Below are positions 16,744 to 18,830 of a DNA stretch of 37,783 bases, piece after piece. How positions within the stretch are numbered: position 1 is the stretch's first letter; the number at the start of each line of letters is the position of its first letter. This DNA comes from a virus. The stretch covers positions 1 to 37,783 of the IMG/VR virus record IMGVR_UViG_3300042332_000335, one strand, 5' to 3'. The position numbers and the translations under genes are program-made. A model generated the notes under the pieces. It saw only the letters and a list, made by a program, of their open reading frames with translations. It had not been told where the DNA came from and did no database searches.

Positions 16744-18039
16744 TTAGTAAATCGGTGAAGGGTCGGTGAAACGGCAGTACTGGCCTTCGTACCAGAGGTT
16801 CACCAGTCCGCACTCGCCGTCTCTCTGTTTGGCAATGGCTATCACTGCTTCGCCTTGTGGTTCGTTCCTGTCCCGGTTGAGCAACAGCACGAGATCCGCA
16901 TCGCGTTCTATCTGACCGGAGTCTGCTAAGTCGGTCAGTCGTGGGATGCGTCCCTTGTCCTTTTCGTTCTCACGGTTCAACTGGGCGAGCGCTACGATAG
17001 CAGTTTTTGTGTCGGTGGCTACAGCTTTCAGCTTTCCCGATACTTCAGCGATCTCATAGGTCTTCTTCTCAGCAGCACGCGATCCATGGATTTTCTGCAG
17101 GTAATCTATGATAACCAACTGCACCTTCCACTTGCGCACTGCACGCCGTATCACCGCGGTAACAGATGAGATATTCGATATACTCGAGCCGGACACAAAC
17201 TGAATCGGACTACCAGCTATCTTTCCCGAGGCCATACTCATAGCCTTCATACCTCCTTGATCCAGATCGCCAGTCTTAATGCTCTGCATTGGCACAGAGC
17301 CAACACTAGATACCATACGTCTAACTATAGACTCATCGGACATCTCTAGCGACACAAATAGCGTAGGCACTCTCTCATTGATACAGGCAGCATTGGCTAT
17401 TGCTATGGCTATGGCTGTCTTACCAATGCTCGGTCGTGCCGCTATGATAGTCAGCTCGCCCAACTGGAAACCATCGGTCTTCTGGTCGAGATGGAAGAAG
17501 CCCGAGGTGATGCCCGAGAGCTTGCCCTTGCGGTTGAATCTCTCCTGCGTGGAGTCGATAAACCTGCCTACCACCGACTTGGAGGATTGCACGTCCTCCT
17601 TGGATGCCTCAACGGTGAGCCCTGCTTCGGCATTAGAGACGATTTGATCGACGCTTAGGGTCAACACAGCGGACTCACGTATCAGACGGTCTCCTGCGGC
17701 ACGTAGCTGGCGTCTGTGGTGGGCTTCCAAGACGGCCTTGAGGAAGGAGGGGTAGTTCGCGGCTGATGGGCACAGCTCGTCTGCCTTGCTCAATTCCTCG
17801 AAAGGCGGGGCGATCTGAGGAATAGAACGCTTCCACTCGGTGACAATAGACTTCAGGTTGACCTGCTCGCTCTTAGCAGTAATGCCTTTGATCAACTCAT
17901 AGATACTACGGAGCCTATCGTTCTGTATTGCATCAGTAGGGACTTGTGCGAATACCTCGTAACACACATCGGATCCTCCAGTAATACAGGAGCCAATAAG
18001 ACCAAACTCATCGTCGCCTGCGTCGAATGGGTCGTTCAT
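16744..18039 (-). CDS. DnaB-family replicative helicase (431 aa)
   Basis: Ring helicase that unwinds DNA at the fork. Residues 1-130 form the N-terminal DnaB domain. The RecA-like core begins near 175 with GITSGFFHLDQKTDGFQLGE, has Walker A ARPSIGKT (201-208), SLEMS (230-234), Walker B LVIIDYLQ (308-315), ALAQLNRE (350-357), LADSGQIERDADLV (371-384) and the arginine-finger region AKQRDGECG (403-411). It directly follows the initiator-like gene with an ATGA overlap, a helicase-loader/initiator pairing. There is no primase domain, so priming needs a host or unrecognised phage factor. Confidence 0.92.
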   Translation of the reverse strand: MNDPFDAGDDEFGLIGSCITGGSDVCYEVFAQVPTDAIQNDRLRSIYELIKGITAKSEQVNLKSIVTEWKRSIPQIAPPFEELSKADELCPSAANYPSFLKAVLEAHHRRQLRAAGDRLIRESAVLTLSVDQIVSNAEAGLTVEASKEDVQSSKSVVGRFIDSTQERFNRKGKLSGITSGFFHLDQKTDGFQLGELTIIAARPSIGKTAIAIAIANAACINERVPTLFVSLEMSDESIVRRMVSSVGSVPMQSIKTGDLDQGGMKAMSMASGKIAGSPIQFVSGSSISNISSVTAVIRRAVRKWKVQLVIIDYLQKIHGSRAAEKKTYEIAEVSGKLKAVATDTKTAIVALAQLNRENEKDKGRIPRLTDLADSGQIERDADLVLLLNRDRNEPQGEAVIAIAKQRDGECGLVNLWYEGQYCRFTDPSPIY

Positions 18040-18830
18040 AGGTAGTTCCTGATGTCGGTTGGATCATTGGGGTTGGGAGGCAACTTGGCGCTGCCTTCCT
18101 CAGATTTGTTTCCACCAGAAGCTAGAAGGCATCTAACCTTGTCGACTTCTCCGTTCCAATTGTTCAGCAGTGTCATCAGCTCCCGGCGGAGGTACGGGTC
18201 TTTCGACTTGTAGCGTGCTTCAACCAGCGCGATGTCATCCTCCGGTGTGTTCAACTCAAAGACCTCTTTCAAGCCCTTGATCTCCTTGGGACTCCAGCGT
18301 GTATCGGGACGGCGGTGAACCATTGCACCAACTCGCAGGCGGAAGGCTTCAAGCTCAGGAGAAAGGGCACGTGTGCCATCTCCTTCCTTTCCTTCCTTTC
18401 CCTTCCCTTCCTTAAGGCACGCGTGGTCGTCGCGTGGCTCACGCGTGGCTGACGCGTCAGATTCCTCGGTGTTTATTGGGGTTTCTTCAATGTTTCCTTC
18501 TGGATCAGGCAAAGCAGACTGCGATTCCCGGTTGTTGATCACTTGATGCTTTTTGAAACTCGGAATGCATCCAAAGCACGCGTCACCCACGCGATACTTG
18601 AGAACGAAAGCACGCGTGGTCAACGCGTCGAGCACGCGTGAAAAGTCGACTCCATCGTATGGCAGAATCTGCACACCGATGCGCCTAGGCTCCCACTTGA
18701 ATCGACCTTCCCGATCAGCAATGCACCACAGGCCTGCAAAGGCCACGCGGAGTGGCAGTTTGGTTTCTATCTCGGCTGCAAACAGTCCCTCGTGATGGAA
18801 GAACTCCGGTTTGATTGTACGGATTCTCAT
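18036..18830 (-). CDS. Replication initiator / replisome organiser-like protein (264 aa)
   Basis: The N-terminal ~100 residues (RIRTIKPEFFHHEGL..., FAGLWCIADREGRFKW, ILPYDG, IPSFKKHQVINNRESQS) form a winged-helix-type domain common in phage replication proteins encoded next to DnaB. A low-complexity linker rich in Lys/Glu/Gly (KEGKGKEGKEGDG) comes from a 35-base pyrimidine tract, followed by a helical C-terminal part ending KLPPNPNDPTDIRNYL that may contact the helicase. The gene body contains the 11-bp-spaced iteron array (18418-18641), the same arrangement as lambda O with its internal origin. Coupled by ATGA to both HNH gene and helicase. Confidence 0.75.
   Translation of the reverse strand: MRIRTIKPEFFHHEGLFAAEIETKLPLRVAFAGLWCIADREGRFKWEPRRIGVQILPYDGVDFSRVLDALTTRAFVLKYRVGDACFGCIPSFKKHQVINNRESQSALPDPEGNIEETPINTEESDASATREPRDDHACLKEGKGKEGKEGDGTRALSPELEAFRLRVGAMVHRRPDTRWSPKEIKGLKEVFELNTPEDDIALVEARYKSKDPYLRRELMTLLNNWNGEVDKVRCLLASGGNKSEEGSAKLPPNPNDPTDIRNYL
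18379..18413 (+). other. 35-base pyrimidine tract beside the iterons
   Basis: An uninterrupted C/T run of 35 bases on the plus strand (purine-only on the minus strand) lies 4 bases left of the first iteron cluster. It encodes the Lys/Glu/Gly linker of the initiator. Such tracts can melt or form unusual structures near origins, but that role is inference here. Confidence 0.7.
18418..18641. repeat. ACGCGT iterons at 11-bp spacing; candidate replication origin
   Basis: Palindromic ACGCGT cores start at 18419, 18441, 18452, 18578, 18612, 18623 and 18634, with one-mismatch copies at 18430 (TCGCGT) and 18589 (ACGCGA). Within clusters the start-to-start distance is exactly 11 bp (18419-18430-18441-18452; 18578-18589; 18612-18623-18634). 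The local unit is about CACGCGTGGCT. Because 11 is not a multiple of 3, the repeats fall in all three codon phases, so protein coding cannot explain them. Between clusters lies a ~115-bp more AT-rich part, a possible unwinding element. Confidence 0.8.

Follow-up and report, generated by a model that had tools for sequence, protein, structure and literature searches.

Why a phage should carry a regularly spaced series of short palindromes in the middle of a protein-coding gene is the question raised by a 37,783-bp IMG/VR record (a 37.8-kb phage contig), the whole of which is referred to here as the window. The palindrome is ACGCGT and the gene encodes a putative replication initiator. An earlier note on this DNA had proposed the array as a candidate replication origin. 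The proposal has gained support, since motif and spacing are kept in relatives and the palindrome changes with the DNA-binding domain of the initiator. From the anatomy of the segment we consider it highly probable that positions 18376-18639 constitute a phage replication origin embedded in the gene of its own initiator.

A phased array within the initiator gene

The earlier count of seven exact and two one-mismatch ACGCGT cores in the initiator gene, with no copy elsewhere, is borne out by a motif count over the whole window. The exact copies (18419, 18441, 18452, 18578, 18612, 18623 and 18634) all fall within 18419-18639; the dinucleotide-shuffle expectation for the entire window is about 10. 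The one-mismatch sites 18430 (TCGCGT) and 18589 (ACGCGA) occupy the 11-bp register. The spacing had been described as a constant 11 bp in each cluster, which is exact within 18419-18457 and within 18612-18639. The description fails for the 18578/18589 pair: its members keep the 11-bp distance, but between its exact site and the last cluster there are 34 bp (3 x 11 + 1), out of strict register with the triple, so that the sites group as 4 + 2 + 3 rather than as two clusters.

That the repeats pass through all three codon phases had been taken to mean that coding does not explain them, and this holds. The seven ACGCGT use phases 2, 1, 0, 1, 1, 0 and 1. Two synonymous-codon nulls give per gene a mean of 0.7 for ACGCGT and of 0.008 for pairs 11 bp apart, against seven and three observed, and the array was matched in none of 20,000 synonymous-shuffle trials. 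The adjoining features noticed earlier are real as well: the pyrimidine tract covers 18376-18413 on the plus strand with one mismatch in 38 nt, and the interval between the arrays is modestly AT-richer than the window (55 % versus 44 %). A cumulative GC-skew check, suggested as a test of the origin, gave no signal in the window and no switch at the array site.

Table 1. Features of the window and array loci in other initiator families
Feature	Position	Strand	Description
Initiator gene	18036..18830	-	264 aa; PHROG replication initiation match and AlphaFold models
DnaB-type replicative helicase	16744..18039	-	PF03796, E=6.1e-71; phrog_19, E=2.2e-78
Iteron array A	18612..18639	-	Three ACGCGT at 11-bp spacing; encodes SRVLDALTTR (residues 64-73)
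Outlying pair of array A	18578..18594	-	ACGCGT (18578) and ACGCGA (18589), 11 bp apart
Spacer between arrays	18458..18577	.	Slightly AT-richer, 55 % AT
Iteron array B	18419..18457	-	Three ACGCGT and one TCGCGT at 11-bp spacing; linker-coding region
Polypurine tract	18376..18413	-	AAGGR 5-nt repeats on the coding strand; encodes linker KEGKGKEGKEG
Array loci in other initiator families	L105:7325-8455, L085:402-1163, L115:2-373, L159:10804-11556, L130:9024-10208		Linker array of ACGCGT, 11-bp spacing

The encoded protein resembles known initiators. Its residues 1-120 match the replication initiation protein family phrog_16167 (E=1.8e-40), and it and all 57 of its 57 aligned relatives match PHROG replication initiation families (phrog_16167, 1408, 2149 and 12556); these are protein families, whose library entries describe no origin sequence. 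Phage “replisome organizer” and “replication protein” models are among its significant matches. In the AlphaFold prediction residues 1-115 fold as an N-terminal winged helix, residues from about 115 to 157 form a disordered linker and residues 158-240 a helical C-terminal domain, with a pLDDT of 84 for the initiator model and of 91 for a model of the N-terminal domain. Pfam returned no match for the initiator, RepA_N or other, and a PDB sequence search matched no solved structure. In a PDB fold search with the initiator model winged helices were found, none of them significant, and Rep structures were likewise not significant. The helicase gene lies directly downstream and overlaps the end of the initiator gene by 4 nt.

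Conservation of the array and of the adjoining tract

Relatives were gathered blind to the motif, by protein and profile searches, which yielded 114 distinct loci, mostly fragments. Among those with a window-type N-terminal domain, 80 of 88 carry ACGCGT in an 11-bp series, and certain of the others come close to a match; a few relatives (L435, L437, L442, L444 and L448) have no recognisable array. Successive ACGCGT in non-redundant relatives are separated by 11 bp in 162 cases, by 22 bp in 26, and by 10 bp and 12 bp in one case each. The layout is kept too, with array A at codons 63-73, array B at about codons 116-143, and 102-183 nt from the last A to the first B site; an extra site 22 or 34 nt beyond the A triple is frequent. 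The spacer averages 51 % AT in the family, compared with 45 % for the gene. Relatives found by their protein thus keep motif and spacing along with it; that they might keep the protein alone was an outcome which the earlier note had named as speaking against an origin, and it did not occur. Nor did the other outcome named there, a motif common elsewhere in the genome, since the window has no further copy.

A scan of IMG/VR for 11-bp ACGCGT triples by DNA pattern alone, whose counts are lower bounds, added at least 109 new loci, and 87 of the 109, among the matches listed, lie in this initiator gene. A complete control scan with 12-bp triples gave 24 loci, none of them in an initiator gene, and chance pattern matches were rejected on this ground. 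Among bacteria, Rhizobiales, Burkholderiales, Gilvimarinus, Rubellimicrobium and others have genomes in which the initiator gene carries the array, and these copies presumably belong to prophages; about 81 of 117 pattern matches in bacterial genomes were not assigned to this gene. A full or partial array is also present in the Vibrio phages VvAW1 and 1.131, in the uncultured phage ct4oC223 and in a 46.6-kb plasmid of Bradyrhizobium ISRA432.

Outside the initiator gene, ACGCGT is depleted in the window and related loci (34 observed versus 68-127 expected). Avoidance of titration was considered as the reason and dropped: phages of the TCGCGA type described below show the same depletion, which is therefore not specific to the array. 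Dispersed triples do occur elsewhere. Contigs of a single planctomycete genome bin, Isosphaera sp. PR.3.33 (L212, L214, L217, L220, L229 and others), contain many ACGCGT 11-bp triples, apparently outside initiator genes, and a conserved 275-aa open reading frame without a family match (L111:334-1161, L120, L152) bears one outside recognised initiators. In two of the relatives that lack the ACGCGT array, L442 and L444, an HNH endonuclease domain is located inside the initiator linker, and L444 retains a purine tract.

The polypurine tract starts five nucleotides past array B on the coding strand and is the sole purine or pyrimidine run that reaches 25 nt anywhere in the window, both strands considered. 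Purine runs of at least 27 nt are found in 88 of the 114 initiator genes and missing from 26; the remainder of those loci has four such runs in 1.23 Mb of strand. The tract is periodic, its self-match peaking at lag 5 (0.73), and also at lag 10. For a codon test that set its stretch by amino acids alone, linker segments with six or more of G, K, E and R were taken. Glycine is encoded there by GGA or GGG in 97.6 % of cases versus 40.6 % elsewhere, and arginine by AGA or AGG in 89 % versus 16 %. Since similar stretches outside the linker show no such bias, the tract has been selected as nucleic acid. Selection at the nucleic-acid level thus acts on the tract as it does on the sites, and the tract is a second conserved element rather than a mere neighbour of the array.

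A G-quadruplex does not capture what is conserved in the tract, the motif being present in just 38 of 88 tracts. The tract could instead be a translation signal outside any origin, an internal ribosome binding site from which the C-terminal domain would be made, and it does contain an AAGGAGG-like sequence. However, an in-frame start codon stands at the right distance in only 6 of 88 tracts, less often than the 20 % expected at random, and we reject this function as highly improbable. The best reading of the tract is a role in DNA opening or helicase loading.

Arrays also occur in initiators of other families, though in few loci: phrog_9474 and DUF1376/phrog_9327 proteins carry ACGCGT at 11 bp in their linkers (Table 1). 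In all of these loci except L130 a stretch with a 5-nt period follows the array. Its letters differ between families, being AGGAC in DUF1376/phrog_9327 and ACAGA/ACATA and GATTA in two phrog_9474 proteins. In the TCGCGA group 6-7-nt purine-rich repeats take the place of the tract.

Protein code, binding sites and the N-terminal domain

The peptide encoded by array A (S64 to R73) corresponds in the AlphaFold model to helix 63-72, the third of the winged helix, which by the usual topology we take to be the recognition helix. Array A is thus predicted to encode the very helix that recognises DNA, one sequence doing two jobs. Its codons GAC (Asp), GCG (Ala) and CGT (Arg) are invariant in 57 of 57 members matched over the stretch, a count biased by the fact that many of these members were found by the motif.

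The amino acids of array A are conserved among ACGCGT members, and one might argue that the SRVLDALxTR helix and the GKE-rich linker are maintained for the protein, their encoding being incidental. This has next to no probability. Synonymous shuffles never reproduce the arrays, the sites use every codon phase at a spacing that is not a codon multiple, codon choice in the linker is extreme, and members without array A have different residues at the TR position. The synonymous nulls, the codon bias and the spacing in relatives together refute an explanation by coding alone.

A further line of evidence comes from relatives with a second type of N-terminal domain, which in 22 of 22 cases have TCGCGA at 10-bp spacing in the same layout. 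The N-terminal domain of the TCGCGA members is 34 % identical to that of the window protein, while their C-terminal domain is 62-71 % identical in one group. Conversely, ACGCGT members with an N-terminal identity of 64-92 % keep the site despite a C-terminal identity of 17-48 %. Palindrome identity therefore follows the N-terminal domain of the initiator, in what amounts to a natural domain swap. Because the site differs with the DNA-binding domain, the sites are linked to the initiator itself. The swaps are the best, if indirect, evidence suggesting that the winged helix reads the sites.

Two side observations belong here. Initiators that begin with MRIRSIKPEFWESES (L343-L379) have TCGCGA at 10-bp spacing, at nucleotides 129 and 139 and again at 332 and 342 of the gene, and their C-terminal domains are of several different kinds. 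In L447:2501-2845, a window-type initiator that lacks ACGCGT, ACATGC/GCATGC-like palindromes about 10-12 bp apart occupy the position of array A and may represent a third iteron type; this initiator also has a tract of GGGGAA repeats.

Two other functions of the sites have to be weighed against these data. Centromere-like sites, too, typically have phased arrays, and AspA and TubR, both centromere-binding proteins, are among the weak fold matches to the N-terminal domain. The array might thus be a partition, packaging or DNA-condensation site of another DNA-binding protein that lies in the gene by chance. This is quite improbable, given that in relatives the array stays within the initiator gene and changes with the N-terminal domain of the initiator. 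A regulatory operator, at which the initiator or another phage protein would bind to control transcription or elongation of the operon, is a somewhat better candidate but still unlikely. An iteron array of any kind can serve autoregulation as well, these sites are inside a replication gene, and site identity that follows the DNA-binding domain would suit autoregulation too. However, the sites lie 190-410 nt into the gene instead of at its start, the two arrays are accompanied by a strand-specific purine tract, and the same elements recur in other initiator families. Moreover, origins within initiator genes are an established arrangement (PMC7466680, PMC5703833).

The putative origin and known systems

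Repeated sites clustered within an initiator coding sequence beyond what coding demands characterise an embedded iteron-type origin, and this is what the window presents. Origin function and the steps that follow are proposed from the anatomy of the segment together with lambda and pSK41. The N-terminal winged helix of the initiator would bind the ACGCGT iterons in A and B, with the bound protomers aligned on one DNA face because the iterons are one helical turn apart. The two arrays, 102-183 bp apart, may then nucleate a single complex, which would have the AT-richer spacer wrapped or looped and would open the DNA at or beside the coding-strand polypurine tract beyond array B. The initiator could hold the exposed purine strand with its 5-nt repeats, or transcription of the gene could give rise to a purine-rich RNA:DNA hybrid that keeps it open. 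Finally, the C-terminal domain would load the phage DnaB helicase encoded next door.

Origins of the lambda type lie in the middle of the O gene and comprise iterons and an AT-rich tract; the O initiator binds the iterons and also single-stranded DNA of the opening tract (PMC7466680). The window shares with lambda and lambdoid O the position of its putative origin, midway through the initiator gene, as well as iterons and a compositionally unusual tract beside them (PMC7466680). It differs in the N-terminal family of its initiator, in the location of one array in the region coding for the DNA-binding domain and, as the earlier note had remarked, in the repeats themselves, which are 6-bp ACGCGT palindromes spaced by 11 bp and divided between two separate arrays. 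Its tract consists of purines in 5-nt repeats, whereas the opening region of lambda is AT-rich; in relatives the tract after array B averages 48 % AT, and even the spacer of the window has only 55 %. A PHROG comparison gave no O-like match for the window protein, and few relatives match O-like families.

The RepA_N origin of pSK41 is located centrally in rep, where it encodes the linker of an initiator composed of a winged-helix N-terminal domain, a linker and a C-terminal domain, and the protein sequence encoded by the origin is dispensable (PMC5703833). The window likewise has a winged-helix N-terminal domain and a separate C-terminal domain, with array B and the tract in the linker region. 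In comparison, pSK41 has four Rep boxes with A+T-rich tracts, and the text consulted makes no mention of a second array in the winged-helix coding region or of a polypurine tract (PMC5703833). With no O-like or RepA_N match for its protein and no AT-rich tract, the window falls outside both the lambda and the RepA_N kinds. The system would appear to work like the lambda and pSK41 origins while belonging to neither by sequence.

The basal unwinding system of oriC, with its DnaA-boxes and DnaA-trios (PMC8287927), offers another parallel, as both place double-strand sites beside short strand-specific direct repeats. The window has a phage initiator instead of DnaA, and purine repeats of 5 nt versus 3 nt (PMC8287927); the self-match of the tract at lag 3 is only 0.28.

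To our knowledge, origins have been mapped in few phages. Literature searches, which covered mainly open-access journals, brought up neither phage iterons with ACGCGT nor a phage origin with a polypurine tract, and no searchable paper described the two-array layout, the 10-11-bp palindromes or the polypurine repeat. The layout of array and purine repeat, recurring in the same gene of many phages, is apparently undescribed. It is conceivable, and we put it forward tentatively, that the tract represents a new and widespread phage origin element, a strand-specific 5-nt repeat in single-stranded DNA that is captured by the initiator, as a counterpart of the DnaA-trio, or held as a purine RNA:DNA hybrid. 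Its period would be kept while its sequence varies among initiator families (AAGGR, AGGAC, ACAGA/ACATA and GATTA), the TCGCGA and HK639-type groups having 6-7 nt. One of the arrays would double as code for the recognition helix.

With ACGCGT or TCGCGA at 10-11 bp in an initiator gene, and a strand-specific short repeat behind them, as a sequence signature, candidate origins could be recognised in uncultured phages and prophages by the hundreds. Ready-made pairs for studying how this winged-helix family reads DNA are available in the natural domain swaps, and the polypurine tract provides a candidate opening element that can be tested and is not rich in AT. A binding site overlapping the code for a recognition helix would be a clear case of a dual-function sequence.

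A layout resembling that of the window is also seen in HK639-type initiators (MARSRNIKP; L455-L534, and L333, which is HK639), where weak 11-bp repeats (AAGAAC/AAGCAC) form two clusters that are followed by TGATTCC 7-mers encoding LIPDS.
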